This document shows positions 2,077-26,949 of a stretch of DNA of 64,000 nucleotides, piece by piece. The notes under the pieces were generated by a model. It made no database searches and was not told the origin of the DNA. It worked only from the letters and a program-made list of their open reading frames with translations. The position numbers were made by a program, and so were the translations under genes. Origin of the DNA: Roseomonas sp. (GTDB lineage Bacteria > Pseudomonadota > Alphaproteobacteria > Acetobacterales > Acetobacteraceae); assembly GCA_020249925.1 (NCBI GenBank), contig JADCER010000008.1:1-64000 (forward strand), given 5' to 3'. Positions within the stretch are counted from its first letter, which is position 1, and each line of letters opens with the position of its first letter.

Positions 2077-2859
2077 TCATGCTGACATCAAACGCATCAA
2101 CCCTGGCCCCAAAGCAGGCGCCGCAAAGCAGATGGGATTGCCGTTCGCCAGCCAATCGCCGCTGTCAAACGCATTCGTCCAGCAACCGGCTTCGCGCGCG
2201 ATGGCGAGTGCGCCGCAGGCATCCCAGGCATTGATATGCAATTCCATATAGCCATCGAGCCGCCCGATGGCGGTTTCCACCAGGCCGAGCGTACCAGAAC
2301 CACCGCACCGCATACCAGCGCCGCTTGCCATGACGCGCCCGGCAAGTGCGATGTAATCCGCAACCGGCCGACGCAGCGACCAGCCGATTTCAATCGTCGC
2401 GCGGTCAAAATCTTGGGTGGCTGCTGCTTGTATCGGCGCAGCATTCAGCGTGGCACCGCAGCCCTGCGCACCGAGGATAAGCTCCTGCGGCGCATGGCGG
2501 GCGATGGCACCCAAGACGGCGCGGCCATCCAGCGCAAGACCGATCGAAACACACCAGCGATCCCCCCCGCGCGCGAAATTTGAGGTGCCATCAATGGGAT
2601 CAATGATCCAAAGCGGGCCGGAAGCCGGCACCTCGCCGCCCCCTTCCTCACCCAATATCGCCTCACCGGGAAAAAGCCGCGTGAGTTCGCCGCGAATGAA
2701 ATCCTCGGTCGCGCCATCAGCTTCGGTCAGGAAATCCTGCGCGCCCTTCAAGCGCGCGGCGCCCTTGCCTTCAAGGCGCATCCGCGCGGCAAGGGCGGCG
2801 GCATCCCGCGCCATCGGCGCCAAAAGCGCTAGGCGCCGTTGCAGCTCGGCCGCGTTCAC
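2077..2859 (-). CDS. Inositol monophosphatase family phosphatase
   Basis: This 260-residue protein has the full set of Mg-dependent IMPase motifs: GEE at 70-72, WIIDPIDGTSNF at 84-95 and WDACG at 212-216. Such enzymes dephosphorylate inositol-1-phosphate, histidinol phosphate or similar monoesters in the cytoplasm. The start ATG overlaps the stop of the upstream SDR gene by 4 bases, so translation is probably coupled. Its position in an operon with iolG, facing iolD-iolE, makes a phosphorylated cyclitol a reasonable substrate, but a HisN-like activity cannot be excluded. An importer that may once have supplied the substrate is decayed just downstream. Confidence 0.85.
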   Translation of the reverse strand: MNAAELQRRLALLAPMARDAAALAARMRLEGKGAARLKGAQDFLTEADGATEDFIRGELTRLFPGEAILGEEGGGEVPASGPLWIIDPIDGTSNFARGGDRWCVSIGLALDGRAVLGAIARHAPQELILGAQGCGATLNAAPIQAAATQDFDRATIEIGWSLRRPVADYIALAGRVMASGAGMRCGGSGTLGLVETAIGRLDGYMELHINAWDACGALAIAREAGCWTNAFDSGDWLANGNPICFAAPALGPGLMRLMSA

Positions 2860-3650
2860 GTATAGGCCCCCATGACATTCTGATCGAAATCCACCAAGGC
2901 GCCGGTCATCATCTCAGCGGCGTCTGACAGCAGATAAATGGCAAGCCCCGCGACATCGGCCGGTTTGATCAGCCGCCCGAAAGGCTGCGTGGCTTCAGCC
3001 TTGTGCAGCCAATCGGGTGGATTGCCATCACGCTGTTGGATCACGTGTTCACCCGGCGTATCCGCCCAGCCAAGATTGATGCCATTGACGCGAATGCGCA
3101 TGGGGCGCAGGCCAAGCGCGGTGTTTTTCGTAAGAGTCGCAAGCGCGCCCTTGGAAGCGGCATAGGCAGTCAGGAAAGGCTGCCCGCCATGGCTCGACAT
3201 GGTGATGATGTTCACAATGGCACCGGGGCGTTTGGCTTCAGCCAGGCGTTGCGCCATCGCTTGCGTCAATTGAAAAGGGGCGCGTGCATTCACCGCAAAA
3301 AGCCGATCCCAAAGTGCGACCGTTGTGTCCAGAATACTGCCGCGATCCGTGAGGCCCGCCGCATTGATCAGCCCATCCACCAGGCCAAGTGTTGCTTCGG
3401 CTTCAGGGATGATGCGCGCAACGCTTTCGGCATCTGCCAGATCAGCCGCACAAAACTGCGCGCGTGTGCCGAGCGCCTGGAGCTTCGCCACCACGGCAGC
3501 GCCGCGCGCCTCATGCCGACCGGTAATGGTAATGGCACCAGCGCCGGCTTCCGCCGCGGCCAGGGCGCAGCCTTCCCCAATGCCCTGCGTGCCACCCGTG
3601 ATCAGGATATGCCGCCCCGCGAGAGAGATTTTCGGCAGCGCGCCCATCAC
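2856..3650 (-). CDS. SDR family NAD(P)-dependent oxidoreductase
   Basis: A 264-residue classical short-chain dehydrogenase. Visible motifs are the nucleotide-binding TGGTQGIG at 18-25, NAAG at 96-99, a catalytic Ser near 152, and Tyr163-x3-Lys167 (YAASK). The cofactor is NAD or NADP and the substrate should be a secondary alcohol or ketone. It overlaps iolG upstream and the phosphatase downstream by 4 bases each, forming a tightly coupled operon. In this setting it likely oxidises a cyclitol or a sugar-like intermediate; that is inferred from context only. Confidence 0.85.
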   Translation of the reverse strand: MMGALPKISLAGRHILITGGTQGIGEGCALAAAEAGAGAITITGRHEARGAAVVAKLQALGTRAQFCAADLADAESVARIIPEAEATLGLVDGLINAAGLTDRGSILDTTVALWDRLFAVNARAPFQLTQAMAQRLAEAKRPGAIVNIITMSSHGGQPFLTAYAASKGALATLTKNTALGLRPMRIRVNGINLGWADTPGEHVIQQRDGNPPDWLHKAEATQPFGRLIKPADVAGLAIYLLSDAAEMMTGALVDFDQNVMGAYT

Positions 3651-4633
3651 AGCCTCACGGGTTTGCCGCTGGCAAGCGACGCATTGGCTGCCTCCGCCAA
3701 CACCAAGGCGCGGCGGCCATCTTCCGCGCCGACCGGCATGGGCGTTTTGTGCAGCACTGCAGCAATGAAGGCTGCCAATTCGATGCGATAGGCATCGGCA
3801 TAGCGTTCCAGAAAGAAATGCAGCGGCTTGTCGGAAACAACCGCCTGGCCATCCGCCAATTCCACCGTGGTGGGTGTAAGATTGCCGGCGATCAGGCGCC
3901 CGGCACTGCCAAAAACCTCCACACGCTGATCATAGCCGTAGCTGGCGCGCCGGCTGTTATTGATATGCGCCATGCGCCCGCTTGGCGTGCGCAGCAACAC
4001 CATGGCGCTATCAATATCGCCGGCGGCGCCAATCGCCTGATCCACCAGACTGGCGCCATGGGCGAAGACCTCATTGGGTTCTTCGCCCAGCATCCAGCGC
4101 GCCATGTCGAAATCATGAATGGTCATGTCGCGAAACAACCCGCCTGAGACCTTCAAATAGGAAATCGGCGGTGGCGCGGGGTCGCGGCTCGTGATGATCA
4201 CCTGTTCCACCGCGCCAATCGCGCCGGCAGCGATGCGGCGATGCAATTCCGCGAAAGATGGATCAAAGCGCCGATTGAAACCAACCAGCATGGGTACGCC
4301 TGCCTTCGCTACTTCGGCGAGGCAGGCGTCCACACGCGGCAGCGCAAGATCAATCGGCTTTTCGCAGAATATCGCCTTGCCCTGGCGCGCCGCGGCCATC
4401 ACCAGGTCAGCATGTGTATCGGTGGAAGACGCGATAATCACAGCGCCGACTTCCGGATCGGCCAAAGCGCTTGCGGTATCACTGACGCGCGCGCCATGGC
4501 GTGTGGCGAGCGCTTCCGCCGCTTCGCCATTGATATCCACCACATGCTTCAGCCTGGCGCGGCCCGAGGCAGCAAGATTGCCGGCATGGATGGCGCCGAT
4601 ACGTCCGGCGCCGAATTGGGCGAAGGTCAGCAT
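3647..4633 (-). CDS. iolG: Inositol 2-dehydrogenase (Gfo/Idh/MocA family)
   Basis: The 328-residue protein starts at the ATG at 4633-4631. An upstream extension of the frame overlaps the divergent gene and is rejected. It has the Rossmann motif GAGRIG at 8-13, the EKP motif with Lys92, and the catalytic Asp169/His173 in RDMTIHDFD, matching the Lys-Asp-His set of inositol dehydrogenases. The enzyme oxidises myo-inositol (or scyllo/D-chiro isomers) to an inosose with NAD. It heads the minus-strand operon iolG-SDR-phosphatase and is divergent from iolD-iolE. iolA, iolB and iolC are not in the window. Confidence 0.85.
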   Translation of the reverse strand: MLTFAQFGAGRIGAIHAGNLAASGRARLKHVVDINGEAAEALATRHGARVSDTASALADPEVGAVIIASSTDTHADLVMAAARQGKAIFCEKPIDLALPRVDACLAEVAKAGVPMLVGFNRRFDPSFAELHRRIAAGAIGAVEQVIITSRDPAPPPISYLKVSGGLFRDMTIHDFDMARWMLGEEPNEVFAHGASLVDQAIGAAGDIDSAMVLLRTPSGRMAHINNSRRASYGYDQRVEVFGSAGRLIAGNLTPTTVELADGQAVVSDKPLHFFLERYADAYRIELAAFIAAVLHKTPMPVGAEDGRRALVLAEAANASLASGKPVRL

Positions 4634-4658
4634 GCTTGGCCTGGCGTTTCCTGGATGG

Positions 4659-4697
4659 TTCTTGCGCGGTGGTTTCAATGACCGTAACACGCAAGAA
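4659..4697. promoter_or_regulatory. Candidate operator: inverted repeat between iolG and iolD
   Basis: TTCTTGCG at 4659-4666 and its exact complement CGCAAGAA at 4690-4697 lie in the 97-base gap between the divergent starts. The arms are 31 bases apart centre to centre, about three helical turns. This is the geometry of a dimeric or tetrameric repressor site controlling both arms, but no regulator gene is present in the window. That it is an operator is inference. Confidence 0.45.
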
Positions 4698-4730
4698 AGG
4701 CGGGACAATACCCCCAGCCGAGGAGATTCC

Positions 4731-6569
4731 ATGGCGAGCCTCACTCTGACCGCGGCTGAGGCTGTGGTCCGCTTCCTGGCAGCGCAGGAAACCGAGATTG
4801 ATGGCCGGGCGCTGCCGCTTTTCGGCGGTGTCTGGGCGATTTTTGGCCACGGCAATGTCGCCGGGCTGGGGCCGGCTTTGGAAGCGCAGCGCGGCAAGCT
4901 GCCGGTTTTTCGCGCGCATAATGAACAGGCCATGGCGCTGGCCGCGATTGCCTATGCCAAAACCCATGCGCGGCGGCGCATCATGGCCTGCACGAGCTCC
5001 ATCGGACCCGGCGCGACCAATATGGTGACAGCGGCGGCCGTGGCGCATGCCAATCGCCTGCCGCTTTTGCTGCTGCCCGGCGATGTCTTTGCCAGCCGGC
5101 GCCCTGATCCAGTCCTGCAGCAGATCGAGAATTTCGGCGATGCCACGCTTTCCGCCAATGATTGCTTCCGCCCCGTGTCGCGCCTTTTCGATCGCATCAC
5201 GCGCGCCGAGCAATTGCTGGCGGCACTTCCCGCCGCCATGCGCGTCCTGACCGATCCTGCCGAATGCGGCCCCGTCACGCTGGCCTTCCCGCAGGATGTG
5301 CAGACGGAGGCCATGGCATGGCCCGCTGCGTTCTTCCGCAAGCGCCTATGGCGCCCACGCGCCGCGGAACCGGATGCACGAGAGGCCGCCGCCGCGGCTG
5401 CGCTGCTCGGGCGGGCGAAACGCCCGATCATCATCATTGGTGGCGGCGTGAAATATGCGCGCGCGGAAGCAGCACTTGCGGATTTTGCTGCGCGCCACGG
5501 TATTCCTCTTGCCGAAACCCAAGCCGGAAAGGGCAGCCTGGCTTGGGATACGCCGGGCAATCTGGGTGCGATTGGCGTGACCGGCACGGCGGCAGCCAAT
5601 ACGCTGGCTGCACAGGCGGATGTTGTGCTGGCGATTGGCACGAGATTGCAGGATTTCTCCACGGGCTCTCGTGCCTTGTTTCCGAAGGCGCGCGTGATTG
5701 GCCTGAATGTTGTGGGCTTTGATGCGCATAAGCATGGTGCGCTGCCGCTTGTGGCCGATGCGGCGCGAGGGCTTGCGGCACTCTCAACCGCGCTCGGTGC
5801 CTGGGCAGCGCCGCAAGCCTGGCAAGTGAAGGCACGCAGCGCCATCCAGCAATGGCAACGCGTGGTGGATCGCGTCACCGCCGCGCCCAAGGCCAAAAAT
5901 GCTGGCCTACCGACCGATGCGCAGGTTGTCGGCGCGGTCAATCGCGCCATGCCGCGCCATGGCATGGTGGTATGCGCGGCCGGCGGACTGCCGGGTGAAT
6001 TGCACAAGCTATGGCGCGCGACAGATGGCACCGGCTACCATCTGGAATATGGCTATTCCTGCATGGGCTATGAAATCGCGGGCGGGCTTGGTGCAAAACT
6101 TGCGGCACCAGAACGCGAAGTGGTGGTCATGGTCGGCGATGGCAGCTATCTGATGATGAATAGCGAAATCGCGACTTCCATCGCGCTTGGCGCCAAGCTT
6201 ACGATCATCGTGCTTGATAATCGTGGCTTTGGCTGCATTCATCGCCTGCAACGCGGCACGGGCGGTGCGGCCTTCAATAACCTGCTGACCGATGCCGCGC
6301 CGCGCATTGATTTCGCAGCCCATGCTGCGGCGCTGGGTGCTGAGGCGCACAAGGTCAGCGATATCGCGGCACTGGAAGCCGCGCTGCCGGCGGCCTTCGC
6401 CGCCAAGCGCACGCAGGTGATCGTTATTGAAACAGACCCGGAGATCGGCACGGCCGAAGGTGGCGCCTGGTGGGAAGTGCCGGTCAGCGCCGTGCCAAAT
6501 TCCCCCGCACAAAAATCCGCGCGCCAGGATTATGAGGTGAAGCGCCGCAAACAGGCGGAAGGGGGCTGA
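4731..6569 (+). CDS. iolD: 3D-(3,5/4)-trihydroxycyclohexane-1,2-dione acylhydrolase (TPP enzyme)
   Basis: This 612-residue thiamine-diphosphate enzyme opens the six-membered ring in myo-inositol catabolism, giving 5-deoxyglucuronate. The TPP-activating Glu lies in FRAHNEQAMALAAIAYAK. The TPP/Mg site is VMVGDGSYLMMNSEI with the following VLDNRGFG. The middle domain has a dinucleotide-like fold (PIIIIGGGVKYARAE). The ATG at 4731 follows a strong GAGGAG; an upstream in-frame extension lacks homology. iolE follows after 2 bases. Length and motifs agree with the IolD family rather than acetolactate synthase. Confidence 0.92.
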   Translation: MASLTLTAAEAVVRFLAAQETEIDGRALPLFGGVWAIFGHGNVAGLGPALEAQRGKLPVFRAHNEQAMALAAIAYAKTHARRRIMACTSSIGPGATNMVTAAAVAHANRLPLLLLPGDVFASRRPDPVLQQIENFGDATLSANDCFRPVSRLFDRITRAEQLLAALPAAMRVLTDPAECGPVTLAFPQDVQTEAMAWPAAFFRKRLWRPRAAEPDAREAAAAAALLGRAKRPIIIIGGGVKYARAEAALADFAARHGIPLAETQAGKGSLAWDTPGNLGAIGVTGTAAANTLAAQADVVLAIGTRLQDFSTGSRALFPKARVIGLNVVGFDAHKHGALPLVADAARGLAALSTALGAWAAPQAWQVKARSAIQQWQRVVDRVTAAPKAKNAGLPTDAQVVGAVNRAMPRHGMVVCAAGGLPGELHKLWRATDGTGYHLEYGYSCMGYEIAGGLGAKLAAPEREVVVMVGDGSYLMMNSEIATSIALGAKLTIIVLDNRGFGCIHRLQRGTGGAAFNNLLTDAAPRIDFAAHAAALGAEAHKVSDIAALEAALPAAFAAKRTQVIVIETDPEIGTAEGGAWWEVPVSAVPNSPAQKSARQDYEVKRRKQAEGG

Positions 6570-6571
6570 TC

Positions 6572-7459
6572 ATGCGTATTCGCCTTGGCATCAATCCGCT
6601 CACCTGGACCAATGATGACATGCCGGAATTGGGCGCTGCCACACCGCTTGAGACCTGCCTTGCTGAAGGCAAGCAGGCCGGCTTTGCAGGGTTTGAGCTT
6701 GGCAATAAGTTTCCACGCGATGCTGCTGTGCTCAGCCCCATCCTCGCGCAGCATGGGCTTGATCTTGTGTCCGGCTGGTATGGTTCTCGGCTGCTGGAAC
6801 GCGATGTAGATGCCGAAATGGCAGCGGCGGAAGCGCATATCAGCCTTTTGGTGGCGATGGGCTGCAAGGTGATGGTGCATGCGGAAGTCGCACGCGCCAT
6901 TCATGGGGATCGCCTTGTTGCGCTATCACAGCGCCCTGTCATGACCGATGCGGATTGGGCGATTTTCGCCCCCCGCATCACGGAATTTGCAAGGCGCCTC
7001 AAGGCGCGCGGGCTATGGCTTGCCTATCACCACCATATGGGCACGGTGATTGAAACAAAGGCCGAGATTGATCGGCTGATGGCACTCACCGGGCCGGAGG
7101 TTGGGCTTTTGCTCGATACCGGACATCTCACTTTTGCCGGCGGCGATCCCGCGCTGGCAGCGCGCCAGCATGCAGCGCGCATTGTGCATGTGCATTGCAA
7201 GGATATCCGCGCGGCCGTGTTGCAGGAAGCCAAGGCGCGTGATTTGCCTTTTCTGAAAGCGGTGCTTCAGGGTGTCTTTACCGTGCCCGGCGATGGCTGC
7301 GTGGATTACCCGGCGGTGCTGAAACCCTTGGCGATGGCGGGCTATGCAGGCTGGCTTGTGGTGGAAGCCGAACAGGACCCCGCCAAGGCGCATCCCCTCA
7401 CCTATGCGCGCATGGGACATGACAATCTGGCGCGGCTTGCGCGCGATGCTTTTGGGTGA
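6572..7459 (+). CDS. iolE: Myo-inosose-2 dehydratase
   Basis: The 295-residue protein has the length and AP-endonuclease-2-like TIM-barrel layout of IolE. Recognisable segments are the N-terminal GINPLTWTNDDMPELG, GFELGNKFP, YHHHMGTVIE and LLLDTGHLTFAGGDP, which supply His, Glu and Asp metal ligands. It dehydrates 2-keto-myo-inositol to the diketone used by IolD. It begins 2 bases after the iolD stop and is followed by rlmJ after 3 bases, so housekeeping genes may be co-transcribed with the catabolic pair. Confidence 0.92.
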   Translation: MRIRLGINPLTWTNDDMPELGAATPLETCLAEGKQAGFAGFELGNKFPRDAAVLSPILAQHGLDLVSGWYGSRLLERDVDAEMAAAEAHISLLVAMGCKVMVHAEVARAIHGDRLVALSQRPVMTDADWAIFAPRITEFARRLKARGLWLAYHHHMGTVIETKAEIDRLMALTGPEVGLLLDTGHLTFAGGDPALAARQHAARIVHVHCKDIRAAVLQEAKARDLPFLKAVLQGVFTVPGDGCVDYPAVLKPLAMAGYAGWLVVEAEQDPAKAHPLTYARMGHDNLARLARDAFG

Positions 7460-8287: not shown

Positions 8288-9267
8288 AGGATCATGTTGC
8301 CATCATTGGCGCAGGCGCCTGGGGCACGGCGCTGGCCATTCAGGCGTATCGTGCGGGTCAGCGCGCTATGCTCTGGGCGCGTGATCCGGCGCGTGCGGCA
8401 CTGATCGAACAAAGCCGCGCGAATGAGCGTTTGCTGCCAGGCGTCATCCTGCCCGATGGCATCAGCATCACCGCCGATGCGGGGCAAGCGTTGGAAGGCG
8501 CGGCGCTGATCCTGCTGGTGGTACCGGCGCAGGCGCTGCGCGCGGTGCTGCAAAGCCTGCCGGTGCTGCCCGCCCCTCTGTTGATTTGTGCCAAGGGTGT
8601 TGAGGCAGGCAGCCTGATGCTGCCGCTTGAAATCCTCGCGGATACGCATCCGCGTAGTGTCGCCGGCGTGCTGAGCGGCCCTAATTTCGCCCATGAAATT
8701 GCGCGCGGCCTGCCCGCTGCGGCGGTTGTGGCCAGCCTTGATGCCGGCTTGCGCGCGCTTGGTGTGGCACGGCTTGGGTCAGCGAGTTTCCGGCTTTACG
8801 GCGGTGATGATCCTGTAGGTGCGGAAATTGGCGGCGCAGCCAAGAATGTGATTGCCATTGCTGCTGGCGCGGTGATGGGCGCAGGCCTTGGTGAAAATGC
8901 GCGCGCCGCGTTGATCACGCGCGGTCTTGCGGAAATTGCGCGCCTGGCCAGCGCGCTTGGTGGCCGCGCTGACACGGTTTCAGGCCTTTCCGGGCTTGGT
9001 GATTTGCTGCTGACGGCAACGGGGGCGGGCAGCCGCAATACCTCGCTTGGCATGGCGCTTGGGCGCGGTGAAAACTTGGCTGACATTCTCGCCGCGCGGC
9101 AGGGTGTCACGGAAGGGGTGACGACGGCGCCCGCCTTGGTTGCGCGCGCGGCACAGCTTGGCGTTGACCTGCCGATTTGCGGCGCGGTGGCGGCGCTGGT
9201 GCGCGGCAAGGTGACGGTGCAGGAAGCAGTGGCGCGGTTGCTGGCGCGGCCGCAGCGCGATGAATAA
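8272..9267 (+). CDS. gpsA: Glycerol-3-phosphate dehydrogenase [NAD(P)+]
   Basis: The protein has the N-terminal Rossmann motif GAGAWGTALA, LSGPNFAHEIA, the catalytic Lys in GGAAKNVIAIAAG and the C-terminal signature GLSGLGDLLLTATG with SRN. It reduces dihydroxyacetone phosphate to sn-glycerol-3-phosphate for phospholipid synthesis. Two starts are possible: ATG at 8272, preceded by GGGAAG, giving a 16-base overlap with rlmJ; or ATG at 8284, which forms an ATGA overlap with the rlmJ stop. The second would remove only four residues. Confidence 0.95.
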   Translation: MAETMKDHVAIIGAGAWGTALAIQAYRAGQRAMLWARDPARAALIEQSRANERLLPGVILPDGISITADAGQALEGAALILLVVPAQALRAVLQSLPVLPAPLLICAKGVEAGSLMLPLEILADTHPRSVAGVLSGPNFAHEIARGLPAAAVVASLDAGLRALGVARLGSASFRLYGGDDPVGAEIGGAAKNVIAIAAGAVMGAGLGENARAALITRGLAEIARLASALGGRADTVSGLSGLGDLLLTATGAGSRNTSLGMALGRGENLADILAARQGVTEGVTTAPALVARAAQLGVDLPICGAVAALVRGKVTVQEAVARLLARPQRDE

Positions 9268-9328
9268 GGCACGCGAAGCAATGCCCTAAAGTCGGAATAT
9301 CGCGCAGGATGCCCTGCTTGGCTTACGC

Positions 9329-9356
9329 TTGACCGGCGCCGGAGGACTGTTACCCT
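9329..9356 (+). promoter_or_regulatory. Possible sigma-70 promoter for the sensor-MFS operon
   Basis: TTGACC at 9329-9334 and TACCCT at 9351-9356 are separated by 16 bases, about 40 bases upstream of the GTG start at 9396. The -35 is good and the -10 is weak, so this is only a candidate. Confidence 0.25.
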
Positions 9357-9395
9357 AGAGTACAAATTTCCTGGTTTTATTGGAGGCATTCGTCG

Positions 9396-10175
9396 GTGCG
9401 TCTGGGGCTTTTGCCATCGCAAGGGGGTCATTTGCCTCTATGGCTCCGGCTCGGCGTGCATATCTCGCTCATCATTGCCCTGGCCATCGGGCTGATCAGT
9501 TTTTTGAATTACTATAATTTCGAAAAATCCTTCCGTGAACTGAACGTCTCACGCGTGAGTGTCGTTGCACGCGATCTGCGCCAAGCGATTGAAGTTGGGC
9601 TCAATATCGGTCTCGCGCCGCGCGACAACCTGGAACTTGCGCGGGAAATCGCCGCCGCCAGGGATCGCACCACCGGGTTGCGCTTCGCAGCGGTGATTGA
9701 TGAACAGGGCCGCAGGCTTCTGGAACTGGGCTCTGCTGGCGCTGATCAGGATTGGGGCTTGCGGCTGGATGGGCAGGGTTGGCTTGGTGAAGATGCGGTC
9801 AGCTACCAGATCGGCTTGCCTTATCGGAACAGCTTCGGCCTGATTTCTGGCGCCATTATTCTTGGTTACGACAAGGCCGAGATTGACCGCGCAACCGCAA
9901 AGATGCGCGGGGCGCTGCTGGTTGATTGGATGATCGCCGTCCTGGCCGTCAGCCTTTTGGTCATGCTTGGCACTTGGCTCATCACGCGTCGGCTTCGGCA
10001 TGAACTTGATGTCGCTGAAAGCGCCCTTAAGGTCACTGATCGCGATGCGGCAGTGCCCAAGCTGCACTTGCCAATCCTTGGTGAGGAGGTTGAGCAAGGC
10101 ATTTCGGATCTTGTTCGGAAGCGGGCGTCACTGATGGAAGGCGCAGCAGAAAAACCGGCCCTTTCCGCACAATGA
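9396..10175 (+). CDS. Two-TM sensor-like membrane protein without output domain
   Basis: A GTG start at 9396 follows TGGAGG and gives 259 residues. TM1 spans about 17-38 and TM2 about 174-196. Between them lies a periplasmic domain of about 135 residues with a Cache-like pattern (ARDLRQAIEVGLNIGLAP, then FAAVIDEQGRRLLELG). The cytoplasmic tail of about 60 residues looks HAMP-like at most and has no kinase, GGDEF or methyl-accepting region. The stop overlaps the next gene by 4 bases. The layout resembles the N-terminal third of the neighbouring MFS fusion, so the two may form a heteromeric sensor. Function is unknown. Confidence 0.75.
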   Translation: MRLGLLPSQGGHLPLWLRLGVHISLIIALAIGLISFLNYYNFEKSFRELNVSRVSVVARDLRQAIEVGLNIGLAPRDNLELAREIAAARDRTTGLRFAAVIDEQGRRLLELGSAGADQDWGLRLDGQGWLGEDAVSYQIGLPYRNSFGLISGAIILGYDKAEIDRATAKMRGALLVDWMIAVLAVSLLVMLGTWLITRRLRHELDVAESALKVTDRDAAVPKLHLPILGEEVEQGISDLVRKRASLMEGAAEKPALSAQ

Positions 10176-12172
10176 GGGCGATACGGCGCGACCTGTTCAT
10201 CCTGACCGCTTTGGTCCTGATGCTGGCGGCTGCTTTCGTGTCCTTTCGCGCGGGGCTCTATGCGGAAGAACATCTGGTCAAGGAACGCCTTGGCGTCCAA
10301 CGGGAAATCGGCCTTTCGGTTGCGGCCGTGATCGAAAAGGCCTTGTCCTATGGCGTTCCGTTTGAGCGCCTGGTGGATGTGGACCGCTATCTGGAAGCGG
10401 TGAAACAGGATAATCCGGAACTTGACTATCTGATCGTTTTGGACAGGAACGGCACGCAGCGCTATTCAACGGAACTGCGCGCCTTGGAAGGGCGCAGCGT
10501 TCTTTTGGGTGCCCTTTCGCGCTTGGCCGAAATTGAAGGTGTTGCAGTCGCTGGCCAGTATTTCAACATGGCCATACCGATCAAGCTGAACTATCGGCCC
10601 ATAGGGTGGCTGCATATTGGCGAAAGGTCGAATTTCATCGCAAAGCTGATGTGGGATATCGCCTTTGATATCCTGGCCGTCCTGGTTGTCGCGATATTGG
10701 TGGCCTTTGAATTGCTGCGCCTGATGTTGGCAGCCGCCTTTACAAGCCCGCTCCGCGCCATGCAGGAGGTGCTTTCCGGCGTATCGCGTGGGGATTATCG
10801 TCAGTATTTGCCGCGTGATTTCTTCGGCGGCATCGGGCGCCTGAATCGCGCCATCAATGCGGGTTTGGATGCCATCAATCAAAGCGCCCGCGCGCGTCAG
10901 GCAGCGGGTAGGGAACTCCCGGCGGGAAATCTGTTCGACTTGTCCAATACGCGTCAGGCGCTGCGGATCAATGCCGTTGAAAATATCGGCTGGCCATTTT
11001 TCCTGCTGATTTTCTCGGAATCGCTTTCTCTCTCGTTTTTTCCGATTTTCGTCTCGCAATTCGTGGATTCGAACTCCACCATTTCCCAGAGTATTGTCAT
11101 CGGTCTGCCCATCACGGTTTTCATGCTGGTCTGGGCCGTTACCATGCCCTATGCGGGCGCCTGTTGTGACAGGATTGGCTTTCGCAAGGCATTCGGCCTT
11201 GGTGCCCTGATAACCACGTTGGGCCTGATCCTGACTGCCTTCGCGGAAAGCATGCTGCAATTGCTGCTTTGGCGGTCACTGACAGCGGTGGGTTATGGCT
11301 TGGTCTATGTCACCACCCAGGCCTATATCACGGCGCATTTCCCGCCAGCGGAACGGACACGCGGACAGGCTCTTTTTCTGACCACTTTCTTCGCGGGCTC
11401 ACTCTGCGGCGCCGCCATTGGTGGGATCCTGGTGGATCGGCTGGGCTTTGAGAAGACCTTCCTGCTTTCGGGCGGGTTGAGCGCGGTGGCTTCCTTCTAT
11501 GTCCTGCGCTTCATGAGCAAATCTGTCGGTCAGGCAACAACCAGGAAGACCCTTGCCCTTGGTGATTTCGGCCTTCTTCTAAGGCAGCGGCAATTCGCGG
11601 TGATCACCTTCCTGTCGGCCGTGCCGGCCAAGGTCGCCCTGGCGGGCTTTCTTTACTATTCGATACCGCTTTATCTGAAAGAATTGGGCCATGACCAGTC
11701 CAGTACCGGGCGCATCATGATGGCCTATGGCCTGGTGATCATCATGCTGAGCCCCCTGGTCGCCCAATTCGCCGATCGCGCGACGCATCGTTGGCGCTTT
11801 GTCATGATTGGCGGCTATGCGGCTGCGCTTGCCGTTGCCATGCCGCTTTTCTTCGAAGGTGGCACCGGTGCGGCCCTTGCTGTCATCGGGCTTGGCATTG
11901 GGCACGCCATTGGCGTTTCATCCCAAATGACACTCATCAATGATCGGTGCGAAGACGTGGTGAAGGAAGTCGGGCAGGCTGCTGCCGTTGGTATCTTCCG
12001 CATGATTGAACGCATCGGCATGCTGCTGGGCCCCATATTGCTTGGCGCCATGATCGCGCTTTCAAATTTCGTCAATGCCTTCGTCGTCATGGCGGGGCTG
12101 ATTTTCCTGGCAACGACAGCCTTCACCTTGTTGCTGTTCCTGCCTGAAAAACGCCCGATGCCGCCATCATGA
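10172..12172 (+). CDS. Sensor-MFS fusion: Cache/HAMP-like N-terminus joined to a major facilitator domain
   Basis: The 666-residue protein has TM1 at about 9-27, a periplasmic sensor-like domain at about 30-155 (EKALSYGVPFERL, then LDYLIVLDRNGTQRYST), TM2 at about 164-184, and a HAMP-like linker at about 185-245 (PLRAMQEVLSGVSRGDY). A complete 12-helix MFS domain then runs from about 270 to 656, with motif A DRIGFRK at 333-339 and a repeat-like VDRLGFEK at 421-428. Standard MFS carriers are about 400 residues and have no such sensor. It is coupled to both neighbours by 4-base overlaps or close spacing. I infer a transporter gated or directed by a periplasmic signal; the substrate is unknown. 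Confidence 0.85.
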   Translation: MRAIRRDLFILTALVLMLAAAFVSFRAGLYAEEHLVKERLGVQREIGLSVAAVIEKALSYGVPFERLVDVDRYLEAVKQDNPELDYLIVLDRNGTQRYSTELRALEGRSVLLGALSRLAEIEGVAVAGQYFNMAIPIKLNYRPIGWLHIGERSNFIAKLMWDIAFDILAVLVVAILVAFELLRLMLAAAFTSPLRAMQEVLSGVSRGDYRQYLPRDFFGGIGRLNRAINAGLDAINQSARARQAAGRELPAGNLFDLSNTRQALRINAVENIGWPFFLLIFSESLSLSFFPIFVSQFVDSNSTISQSIVIGLPITVFMLVWAVTMPYAGACCDRIGFRKAFGLGALITTLGLILTAFAESMLQLLLWRSLTAVGYGLVYVTTQAYITAHFPPAERTRGQALFLTTFFAGSLCGAAIGGILVDRLGFEKTFLLSGGLSAVASFYVLRFMSKSVGQATTRKTLALGDFGLLLRQRQFAVITFLSAVPAKVALAGFLYYSIPLYLKELGHDQSSTGRIMMAYGLVIIMLSPLVAQFADRATHRWRFVMIGGYAAALAVAMPLFFEGGTGAALAVIGLGIGHAIGVSSQMTLINDRCEDVVKEVGQAAAVGIFRMIERIGMLLGPILLGAMIALSNFVNAFVVMAGLIFLATTAFTLLLFLPEKRPMPPS

Positions 12173-12186
12173 AAACAGGAGAAGCC

Positions 12187-13200
12187 ATGCGCAGATTACT
12201 CATCGGTGGCCTGCTCAGCCTGCCGCTCTCCAAGCCGTTTCTGGTGCGAAGCGCCGCGGCACAACGAAGCAATTATACGGTGATGCTGATCCTTTTCCGA
12301 GGCCAGACTGCGGCGGAAGAAGCCTTCATGCTTTATTTGAAGGAACGTCTTCCGGTGGAATTCCTGATCCGTGATATTGATGGTGACCGCACGAAGATCC
12401 GGCAATTCCTCAATGAAGCGCGGCAAAGGCGCGTTGATCTGGTCTATACTTTCGGAACAACGGTGACGCAGGAAGTGGTGGGCGTTCTGGGTTCAGTGGA
12501 TCGCAATCGGCATCTTGTTGATATCCCGGTGGTCTTCAATATCGTAGCCGATCCTGTGGGTGCCGGGCTTGCCGATGGGCTTGCCCCAACCGGGCGCAAT
12601 GTGACCGGGGTTTCGCACCTGGTTCCGCTCCGGGATCAGATCAGTGCCATGCAGCGTTTCGCAACGGTTCGCAGACTGGGCGTTGTCTATAATGTCTCAG
12701 AAGTGAATTCCCTGCTGGCCGTGGTCCAACTGCGTCAGCTTGCGAATATTCTTGAATATGAATTGCTGGAAGCGCCGCTTGGCACCGGCCATCGCCCCAG
12801 CACGAGTGAGATCGAGCAGGCGATGGAAAGGATGCTCCCAGGCAGGCCCGATTTCATCTACTTGCCCTCTGATTCATCCATGATTGCCAATGCACAGACC
12901 ATTGTGCGGCTTGCCACTGCAGCGAAGGTGCCGGTCATTTCCGCGACCGAGGGCCCCATTTATGAAGCAGGGGCGCTGGTTGGCATGGTGACCAAATATG
13001 TGAATGCCGGCGCCTTTGCCGGCTATAAGGCCGAGCAGATTCTTCTCAGAAGGCAAGCGGTGGGCGCAATTCCCATCGAAAGATTGCAGCGCTATTCGCT
13101 GGTCATCAACATGAATGCAGCGGCACAGCTTGGCATTTATCCGCCGCTTGATCTGCTGAGGATCGCTGAACTGGTCGGAACGCCTACTGGCACGCGCTAG
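12187..13200 (+). CDS. ABC-type substrate-binding protein (PF04392-like), orphan
   Basis: The protein resembles the ABC_sub_bind family: TVMLILFRGQTAAEEAF, LVYTFGTTVTQEV, VVFNIVADPVGAGL, NVTGVSHLVPL and a C-terminal INMNAAAQLGI. A signal peptide of about 26 residues ends SAAAQ. I prefer the ATG at 12187, preceded by AGGAGA at 5-6 bases; an earlier ATG at 12169 would make an ATGA overlap with the MFS gene. No ABC permease or ATPase is nearby, so it probably presents a ligand to the sensor-like membrane proteins encoded upstream rather than to an importer. That role is inference. Confidence 0.8.
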   Translation: MRRLLIGGLLSLPLSKPFLVRSAAAQRSNYTVMLILFRGQTAAEEAFMLYLKERLPVEFLIRDIDGDRTKIRQFLNEARQRRVDLVYTFGTTVTQEVVGVLGSVDRNRHLVDIPVVFNIVADPVGAGLADGLAPTGRNVTGVSHLVPLRDQISAMQRFATVRRLGVVYNVSEVNSLLAVVQLRQLANILEYELLEAPLGTGHRPSTSEIEQAMERMLPGRPDFIYLPSDSSMIANAQTIVRLATAAKVPVISATEGPIYEAGALVGMVTKYVNAGAFAGYKAEQILLRRQAVGAIPIERLQRYSLVINMNAAAQLGIYPPLDLLRIAELVGTPTGTR

Positions 13201-13436
13201 TGGTGCGACTCATGGTGACCTGTCCCCTGCCCAAAAAGCCCCTGCGCACCACTCGCCGTATATTTGGTGGGCCGATTCACGCCGCTGTCGGGAACCGACA
13301 GCGGCGATCGGACCACGAGTGGTGCGATGCATCCTGACCTATCCCCTGCCGAAAAAGCCCCCGCGCACCACTCGCCGTATATTTGGTGGGCCGATTCACG
13401 CCGCTGTCGGGAACCGACAGCGGCGATCGGACCACT
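13199..13436. repeat. Two tandem 119-bp units, each with a large hairpin
   Basis: Copies run 13199-13317 and 13318-13436 and differ at only a few bases. Each holds a perfect 12-bp inverted repeat, CGCCGCTGTCGG with its complement around a GAA loop (13280-13306 and 13399-13425). This is extended outward by CCGAT/ATCGG arms, with TCA bulged on the 5' side. Each copy also has AGTGGTGCG near its start and CGCACCACT about 40 bases later. They sit between the binding-protein gene and hemD. The remaining bases up to 13517 hold nothing recognisable. Confidence 0.9.
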
Positions 13437-22772: not shown

Positions 22773-23741
22773 CTATTCGACGCGGATATTCGCCTCCCGC
22801 GCGACCACGATATTTTCCGCCAATTCGCGGGCGATACGGGCGGTGAATACCTCAGGCCCCTCACCCAGGATCACGCCGCCCTGATCCAGCAGCCGCTGGC
22901 GAATAGTCGGATCGCGCAACAGGCCCTGAACATCGCGCGCGATTCGGTCCACGATATCGCGCGGGAGGCCGCGGGGCGCCATAAAGCCATACCAGGGGCT
23001 GGTATCCGGAATGCCCATGCCAAGCTCATCCAAGGTGGGCACATCGGGCAGCGCCGGCACGCGCTGCGGCGTGCCAATCGCGAGCGGGCGGAGCTTGCCC
23101 TCGCGCGCCAGGCCAATCGCCCCGGATAGCGTGCTGAAAGTCCCCGGCACGCGCCCCGCCACCACATCCTGCAACGCTGGCGCCGCACCGCGATAGGCAA
23201 CATGGGTCAGGTCCAGATTCATTTTCTTGCGGAACATCTCAAGCGCGAAGTGCCCAGACGCCCCATTGCCGGAAGAAGCGAAAGCCATACCGGGATCACG
23301 CCGCGCTGCCGCGACCAATTCCTGCGCCGTGCGGAAGGGCTGCCCCGCGCCGGTGAACAAGACGGTCGGCGAGGCATAGATATTCACAATCGGCGTGAAA
23401 TCATTGATCGTGTCATAGGGCAGCCGCGCATAGACGGCCGCATTGCTGGCATGGGTGCTGGCCGCGAGGAAAATCGTATAGCCATCGGGCGCTGAGCGCG
23501 CGACCATTTCAGAGGCAATCACCTGGCTCGCGCCCGGGCGATTTTCGATGACGATGGGCTGACCCCAAAGCCGTTGCAGCGGTTCCTGCAACAGCCGCCC
23601 CGGAAAATCCGTGGGGCCACCGGCGGGATAGCCGATGATCATCCGCACCGGACGATCCGGCCAAGTGCTCGCTTGCGCCTTGGCTTTGGTGATGATGGTG
23701 CTGGCCATCCCGGCGGCCAGCAGGCTGCGACGCTTGAACAT
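22773..23741 (-). CDS. Bug-family (TTT) periplasmic substrate-binding protein
   Basis: The 322-residue protein has a signal peptide (MFKRRSLLAAGMAS to KAQA) and the Bug/TctC hallmarks: WPDRPVRMIIGYPAGGPTD, QPIVIENRPGA, SSGNGASGHFALEMF and VAYRGAAPALQDVVAG. These receptors bind carboxylates for tripartite tricarboxylate transporters. No TctA/TctB genes are near. Its ribosome site GGAGGAAG is good. The unusual point is its position between nrdA and nrdB, all on the same strand. Confidence 0.92.
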   Translation of the reverse strand: MFKRRSLLAAGMASTIITKAKAQASTWPDRPVRMIIGYPAGGPTDFPGRLLQEPLQRLWGQPIVIENRPGASQVIASEMVARSAPDGYTIFLAASTHASNAAVYARLPYDTINDFTPIVNIYASPTVLFTGAGQPFRTAQELVAAARRDPGMAFASSGNGASGHFALEMFRKKMNLDLTHVAYRGAAPALQDVVAGRVPGTFSTLSGAIGLAREGKLRPLAIGTPQRVPALPDVPTLDELGMGIPDTSPWYGFMAPRGLPRDIVDRIARDVQGLLRDPTIRQRLLDQGGVILGEGPEVFTARIARELAENIVVAREANIRVE

Positions 23742-25962: not shown

Positions 25963-26949
25963 GTGACCACCATGACCCGCCGTGGCCTATTGGCCGCCCC
26001 GCTGGCGCTCGGCCCGCTCGCTGCCCCTGCCTATGCCCAGGCGCCTTGGCCAACGCGGCCTGTCCGGATTGTGATTCCCTTCGGCACCGGGGGCGGGACG
26101 GATATCACCACACGGCTTTTGGCCCCCAAATTGGCGGAAATCCTAGGCCAGCCCGTGGTGCTGGAAAATCGCCCCGGCGCGGGCGGCGTGGTCGGCACGG
26201 ATTATGTGGCGAAGCAGCCGCCGAATGGCGATGTTTTTGTGCTCTCCACCCTCTCCCCCATCGCACTCGCCCGCGGCCTGCCCGCCCCGGTGCCCTTTGA
26301 TGCGCGGACCGATTTGGTGGCGGTTGCACCCACCGTCTTTGTGCCCATCGCGCTTGCCGTCACCACGCGCAATTTCGCGCCCACCACGGCGGCGGAATTC
26401 ATCGCAACGCTCAAGGCTGCGCCAGGGCGTTATCAATATGGCTCCTCCGGCATTGGGACATCCGGGCATATCGCCTCGGCCAGTTTCCTGGTGCGGACGG
26501 GGACGGAGGCCGTGCATGTGCCCTATCGCGGTGGTGGGCAGGTGTTTACCGCGCTCACGGCGGGCGAGATTCAATTCTGCTGCGACATCCCCTCCATCCT
26601 CAAGGGGTTTCAGGATGCGGGCACGGCGCGGGTGCTGTTTGTCGCGACCGATCAGCGGTCTTCCCTGCTGCCCAATGTGCCTACAGCGGCCGAGGCAGGA
26701 ATCGCCGGCTATAAATCCCATTCCTGGTATGGCTTCTTCGCCCCGCGCGACACGCCGGCCGCGATTGTGAACCGCATGGCGGCCGCGACCGAACAGGCGC
26801 TGGCGGATTCGACGATCAATCAGCGCTTTGAGGAAATGGGCACCCCCGCCATGCGCGGTTTCACGCCCGAGCGATTCGCGGCCTATGTGCGGGACGAGAT
26901 TGCCTTCTGGGAGCCCGAAGTGCGCGGCCTTGGCATCAAGGCAGAATAG
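25963..26949 (+). CDS. Bug-family (TTT) periplasmic substrate-binding protein
   Basis: A GTG start at 25963 sits 7 bases after AAGGAG, giving 328 residues; ATG at 25972 is an alternative. The signal peptide ends AYAQA. Family motifs are WPTRPVRIVIPFGTGGGTDI, QPVVLENRPGAGG, SSGIGTSGHIASASF and VPYRGGGQVFTALTAGE. It binds a small organic acid in the periplasm. It is divergent from nrdA and has no transporter membrane genes beside it. Confidence 0.93.
   Translation: MTTMTRRGLLAAPLALGPLAAPAYAQAPWPTRPVRIVIPFGTGGGTDITTRLLAPKLAEILGQPVVLENRPGAGGVVGTDYVAKQPPNGDVFVLSTLSPIALARGLPAPVPFDARTDLVAVAPTVFVPIALAVTTRNFAPTTAAEFIATLKAAPGRYQYGSSGIGTSGHIASASFLVRTGTEAVHVPYRGGGQVFTALTAGEIQFCCDIPSILKGFQDAGTARVLFVATDQRSSLLPNVPTAAEAGIAGYKSHSWYGFFAPRDTPAAIVNRMAAATEQALADSTINQRFEEMGTPAMRGFTPERFAAYVRDEIAFWEPEVRGLGIKAE

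Follow-up and report, generated by a model that had tools for sequence, protein, structure and literature searches.

A sensor-like protein, a sensor-MFS fusion and an orphan binding protein in Roseomonas as a candidate receptor-controlled transporter

What do a sensor-like protein, a Major Facilitator Superfamily (MFS) protein with a sensor unit at its N-terminus and a periplasmic binding protein do when their genes overlap on one strand? The question is raised by positions 9396 to 13200 of contig JADCER010000008.1 of Roseomonas sp. The first 64,000 nucleotides (nt) of this contig were analyzed and are called the window. The three genes are referred to as A, B and C. An earlier note on this DNA proposed that the binding protein hands a ligand to a heteromeric sensor, which gates or biases an MFS carrier. 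The linkage of the genes, the A-B fusions, the LuxQ-like Cache match, the invariant sites of C and the conserved charges of the MFS domain support reading the trio as one unit. On this view, C would bring a ligand to A and B, whose Cache domains would dock C as a pair and gate the MFS carrier. This reading is held tentatively, with a confidence that falls just short of even.

Architecture of the three genes

Gene A (9396..10175, plus strand) encodes a sensor-like protein of 259 amino acids (aa) with the order transmembrane segment (TM), Cache domain, TM and helix. Gene B (10172..12172, plus strand) encodes 666 aa, with a TM-Cache-TM-HAMP-like unit at about residues 1-250 and an MFS domain at about 270-660. 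Gene C (12169..13200, plus strand) encodes a binding protein of 343 aa that belongs to PF04392 (ABC_sub_bind). The stop of A overlaps the start of B by 4 base pairs (bp) (10172..10175, plus strand). By open reading frame (ORF) positions the stop of B also overlaps the start of C by 4 bp (12169..12172, plus strand), which confirms the coupling of three plus-strand genes described in the earlier note. The 4-bp A/B overlap recurs in 42 of the 73 loci with both ORFs called in the 80-locus set described below, start codons being assigned mechanically. The trio is flanked by gpsA before A and hemD after C, and promoter and terminator scans around it gave results close to chance. No NCBIfam model was over its cut-off for A, B or C among the matches listed (25 of 43 for B). 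Of the 12 plasmid records that match B, three annotate it as 'MFS transporter' and nine have no annotation under the match. Directly 3' of C, at 13199-13436, lie two tandem 119-nt units that are 93% alike and contain a palindrome each. Related copies or parts of this unit occur at 22 distinct places in the genome (from 29 matches), which makes it a dispersed intergenic repeat family.

The predicted structures of A and of the first 250 residues of B both show the TM-Cache-TM-helix order and are closest to WalK. Structural matches of the two models include WalK, CitA, DcuS and LuxQ, the last being matched by B. The models therefore bear out the Cache-type units that had been proposed for both proteins. 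By hydropathy, A has two TM segments, whereas B has two followed by eleven more. The Pfam sCache_3_2 scores are 17.5 and 23.5 bits, under the cut-off of 28.4. HAMP_2 scores 14.5 bits on the window B, also under its cut-off (24.3), and PF00672 (HAMP) scores 37.1 bits on the B of Azospirillum brasilense, over the cut-off of 25. The linker from E180 to the MFS start is shorter than 60 residues in two of 91 B rows, L034 and L184, both of them fused, versus a median of 111. Since the HAMP-like linker is nearly absent in these two, its loss appears to be tolerated and it is not essential to the design. In the window, the HAMP-like part that had been proposed is a sub-threshold match.

Conservation was assessed on 66 rows of A and 67 rows of C after length filters. 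The 91 rows of B comprise the window, the B frames longer than 600 aa of the 80-locus set (minus the near-copies L115-L117 and any frame that is broken or cut) and 19 chosen further loci. Conservation in A is concentrated at G72, G105, G140, G152 and a few other columns, including N38, K41, S52 and Y158, which are present in most rows, and the conserved columns of its Cache domain are mostly glycine or hydrophobic. Those in the Cache domain of B are mainly K42, A57, G61, P63, G69 and G101. E180 and D166 in the second TM of B are kept in 83 and 75 of the 91 rows. A Pfam scan recognized no enzyme domain in A or B, the cytoplasmic part of A included. Because A and B have no recognized enzyme domain and C has no membrane part past its N-terminus, the MFS domain is the sole visible output within the trio.

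MFS_1 matches B with 144.2 bits (cut-off 33.4), the best stretch being residues 277-593. Against the twelve membrane helices of a typical MFS protein, eleven hydropathy segments fall within residues 276-656, and the stretch around R368 fell below the threshold. Mean conservation in the MFS domain is 2.47 and 2.16 bits, versus 1.62 bits for Cache residues 31-155. Residues E283, R368, Q383, D535, R610, E613 and R614 are kept, with their charges in or near predicted membrane helices, and motif-A-like residues are kept as well. An MFS-only query (residues 267-666) gave 35 matches at E<=1e-20 in 385 genomes of the class, one of which is the window. Thirty of the other 34 belong to frames that are 660 aa or longer and carry the N-terminal extension, and a plain MFS gene with a spurious extension was rejected on this ground. 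The remaining four are either cut by contig ends (G373 and G028) or sensorless (G186:C34 and G370, in frames of 415 and 463 aa). The sensor-MFS fusion seen in the earlier note is therefore a lasting architecture. Homologues do not routinely lack the N-terminal region, and a sensorless minority exists.

C matches PF04392 with 122.7 bits, and its sequence relatives with solved structures are 6hni, 3lkv and 3lft. Its N-terminus is hydrophobic and, by eye, resembles a signal peptide. R44, F53, D90, L91, G96, T97, G105, P120, F123, V126, P129, G147, Y277, G281 and P325 are invariant in all 67 rows. Since sites such as R44, D90, G96, T97 and Y277 do not vary, and the conserved Cache columns are mostly glycine or hydrophobic in A and mostly glycine, proline or K42 in B, recognition is more likely to reside in C and docking in A/B. 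The best NCBIfam match of C is TrpX (NF041285), with 122.3 bits against a cut-off of 390. A scan of 20 other genes of the window found no ATP-binding cassette (ABC) permease or ATPase, the rest of the genome not having been searched for such a partner, and within that set C remains the binding protein without an ABC partner that it was first taken to be. No ABC family appeared in the neighbors of other loci among the matches listed (25 of 143 families; 105 of 191 proteins). Pfam likewise gave no match to DctQ/DctM or TctA/TctB subunits in A, B, C or the 20 other window genes scanned.

Linkage and fusion across genomes

Three other genomes among the 39 searched (own included) have A-B-C in order, with about 26-37% identity per protein. 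Two of these come from the genus of the window and the third from its class, in which two further genomes have a fused (G037) or a cut (G028) trio. A scan of genome contigs with patterns from B alone (5-row alignment) gave at least 80 loci, the 80-locus set, in which most relatives have only about 25-40% identity to the window B. A-B-C occur in order on one strand in 66 of these loci, and in 4 A is fused into B and C follows. In the other ten C is elsewhere (L147, L171, L182 and L186), C is missing or cut (L144, L163 and L189), A was not called beside B (L181 and L190), or B is cut by a contig end (L188). After a six-frame check and a wider map, and among the matches listed, A is found separate or fused in 79 of the 80 loci, all but L181, a locus that begins within B. 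C is found in 78, L188 being cut and L189 being without C within about 6 kb. The linkage of the trio, for which the earlier note suggested a neighborhood survey, is thus conserved.

A B-like ORF is present in 42 more loci, including five that are identical in DNA to loci of the 80-locus set. The 37 further distinct loci (45 minus L113, with a weak MFS and no A or C, L035 and L092, without a B-like ORF, and the five duplicates) include 18 with a separate A, 17 with A and B as one protein and two sensorless ones (L096 and L102). C is present in 36 of them, that is, in all except L047, a locus cut short by the end of its contig. Identical DNA is shared by L031 and L138, L076 and L123, L079 and L133, L088 and L171, L092 and L188, and L106 and L150, and the near-copies L174/L175 and L094/L095 were kept.

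The fused proteins, 4 of 80 in the first set and 17 of 37 in the second, are spread over several separate parts of the MFS tree. Thirteen of them show TM-loop-TM-TM-loop-TM by hydropathy, followed by the MFS helices, with segment counts that vary from 14 to 18. These fusions support the view that A and B belong together. The whole trio is also present in the laboratory strain Azospirillum brasilense Sp7 (L198). One locus labelled Stygiobacter (L165) groups with Rhodospirillales and has flanking genes in common with them, so the contig may have been binned under the wrong phylum.

A proposed mechanism and its rivals

We infer a complex of the three proteins, docking, ligand transfer, gating, a direction of import and a coupling to neighbors. 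C would bind a small molecule in the periplasm. Ligand-loaded C would dock on the paired A/B Cache domains in the manner of LuxP on LuxQ, and the docking state would pass from A/B via the second TM helix of B to the MFS domain. The MFS domain would then move the molecule, presumably inward, as a binding-protein-fed and Cache-gated secondary carrier. The trio probably also passes its state on to a PP2C phosphatase, a cyclase or a type VI secretion system (T6SS) in those loci that encode one next to it.

Several observations weigh against this mechanism. The C of the fused and ATP-grasp lineages departs from the invariant residues at several positions, a sign that its ligands may differ in these lineages. 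L189 (Marivibrio) has A and B with no C within about 6 kb, and a hydantoinase-type gene follows. The sensorless MFS relatives L096 and L102 have C nearby, and another, L197 (Azospirillum sp. B510), has neither A nor C within 13 kb. Five loci have a second A-B-like pair, without a C of its own, beside PP2C or cyclase genes (L080 at 9314-11973, L081 at 2448-5095, L083 at 9359-12164, L161 at 8756-11418 and L180 at 9974-11422). The B-like member scores 34.2 bits with MFS_1 in L080 (cut-off 33.4) and is under every MFS cut-off in L081, L083 and L161. These weak MFS parts suggest that an A-B pair can act without a carrier, which makes a signaling role plausible. B is also closer to efflux than to uptake MFS families, with matches to TIGR00880 in 14 of 17 rows and to TIGR00711 in 13 of 17, the scores of the window being well below the cut-offs. 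This counts against import.

The efflux resemblance favors a secrete-and-sense arrangement, in which B would export a small molecule partly made by neighboring enzymes, and C with the A/B Cache domains would sense its level beyond the inner membrane and feed back both on export and on nearby outputs. The LuxQ-like Cache fold would suit it, as would several biosynthetic neighbors. An ATP-grasp (D-Ala-D-Ala ligase-like) gene is beside the A-B fusion in ten loci (L097-L101, L103-L105, L112 and L114), five of which are in the tree and form one clade. GNAT and ATP-grasp genes lie downstream of the trio in Azospirillum brasilense Sp7, and several clades have a formyltransferase-like gene next to the trio. 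However, most rows of B lack the proline of antiporter motif C, position 414 being P in 13 and T in 59 of the 91, and no such biosynthetic gene mapped beside the clade of the window itself. In addition, the binding-protein-dependent systems covered in parts of PMC5812351 are uptake systems. The arrangement is considered unlikely. As to the direction of transport, the efflux resemblance and the biosynthetic neighbors in some clades would favor export, while the binding protein would favor uptake.

A second alternative is that B has lost transport and uses its MFS domain as a membrane sensor, with the trio signaling to a PP2C, a cyclase, a T6SS or other partners. UhpC is an MFS protein that acts in this way. 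Neighboring genes were clustered, named with Pfam on representatives and mapped by profiles, and PP2C was separated from cyclase by catalytic-domain profiles. A T6SS was called from at least one of VgrG, DUF6931, PAAR, TssA, Hcp, TssB and TssC. Raw counts of partners within the retrieved stretch give a T6SS in 34, a PP2C in 35 (one locus having both), a cyclase in 4 and none of these in 48 of 120 distinct loci (80 plus 40, window included). The 80-locus set contains 30 loci with a T6SS, 20 with a SpoIIE-type PP2C, 1 with a cyclase and 29 with none. The 46 other loci (window included) contain 17 with PP2C, 4 with T6SS, 1 with both (L034), 3 with cyclase and 21 with none. In a label test on the tree, for which the labels came from whole-protein profiles, the SpoIIE row includes one cyclase locus (L080). 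All four PP2C/cyclase proteins scanned have HAMP; those of L132, L121 and L080 also have a Cache match, and that of L128 has HAMP only. The T6SS-type genomes searched (79 of 80 genomes covered, L149 outside) contain VipB sheath genes, in many cases two in tandem. For L137, L139 and L150, contig coordinates place VipB about 6-7 kb away from the trio. In L137, L150, L157 and similar loci the trio lies inside T6SS loci with VgrG-DUF6931-PAAR, and several genomes have two tandem VipB/TssC.

These partners favor a role in signaling, as do the second A-B-like pairs with a weak or unrecognized MFS part. Yet the MFS domain is the best-conserved part of the trio B and keeps its motif-A-like residues and membrane charges, and 48 of the 120 loci have no such partner in the retrieved stretch. 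A SpoIIE-type PP2C gene and a VipB (T6SS sheath) gene were looked for in the genome of the window and neither was found. Therefore, the trio cannot depend on either in this host, a T6SS or SpoIIE partner is ruled out there, and no such output is known in it. As for the three nearest metagenome-assembled genomes searched besides L115, VipB was not found in L116 and L117, and the genome of L118, whose B is about 90% identical to the window B, has two VipB matches, neither at the retrieved locus. A pure receptor is considered distinctly unlikely.

An ordinary operon with three unrelated functions, namely drug export, a stray sensor and an orphan binding protein that works for an ABC system encoded elsewhere, is very improbable: B by itself resembles a drug efflux MFS, the genome of the window has a second PF04392 gene elsewhere, and orphan binding proteins are common according to the TTT passage of PMC5812351, but the linkage persists at the low identities given above, A-B fusions occur, and the C sites are common to T6SS-linked, PP2C-linked and stand-alone loci. 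The carrier fed by C and gated by the Cache pair is retained as the preferred reading.

Other features were noted around the trio and its relatives. Genes for an alpha/beta hydrolase and a histidine phosphatase accompany the sensorless MFS relatives L102, L096 and L197. Upstream in the window, at 3647-7459, Pfam identifies oxidoreductase, TPP (thiamine pyrophosphate) enzyme and TIM-barrel genes, which resemble those of myo-inositol catabolism (iol names). A link of the trio to these sugar-catabolism genes was dropped because RlmJ and GpsA intervene. Two TctC-type binding proteins (22773-23741 and 25963-26949) flank a ribonucleotide reductase large-subunit gene.

Comparison with known systems

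Parts of a 2018 review describe three families of binding-protein-dependent transporters, namely ABC, tripartite ATP-independent periplasmic (TRAP) and tripartite tricarboxylate (TTT) transporters (PMC5812351). It is possible but doubtful that the trio represents a fourth, MFS-based class, with a heteromeric Cache pair as the dock for C and the gate of the carrier, and that different bacteria have connected this class to partner-switching phosphatases, cyclases and T6SS. No description of the trio was found in the open-licence PubMed Central (PMC) literature among the matches listed, in agreement with the earlier impression that the layout is not a described system. Judged from its genes, the trio is perhaps a receptor-controlled transporter of a kind not described before, the novelty concerning the layout. 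If the MFS domain is fed by C, a very large superfamily of secondary carriers would acquire a branch that depends on binding proteins, and transport gating would be a new job for the Cache sensor fold. Linked to T6SS genes in marine bacteria and, elsewhere, to PP2C/STAS or cyclase genes, the trio is a candidate input for those systems.

C belongs to the family of the PF04392/TrpX-like ABC binding proteins, but it is far below the TrpX cut-off, has no ABC partner among the genes scanned and has its own signature of R44, D90, T97 and Y277. The TM-Cache-TM layout and the predicted fold of A and B are those of WalK-type TM-Cache-TM-HAMP sensors. Unlike in WalK, no kinase is recognized, and the chain continues into the MFS domain in B or stops in A. 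The trio resembles LuxP-LuxQ in that LuxQ, the docking partner of the binding protein LuxP, is among the fold matches of B. LuxQ carries a kinase, whereas B carries an MFS domain and has a second Cache protein alongside. The likeness to UhpC and the MFS transceptors is that of an MFS protein that may report on a ligand. UhpC is not known to carry a fused Cache unit and has the kinase UhpB as its partner, while the trio has both a fused Cache unit and a binding protein. With TRAP and TTT transporters, as described in parts of PMC5812351, the trio shares a plan in which a secondary carrier and a smaller membrane protein are encoded together with a periplasmic binding protein, and an ATPase is absent. 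Pfam showed no subunit that the trio has in common with them: its carrier is an MFS protein, its small subunit is a Cache protein and its binding protein is of the PF04392 family.

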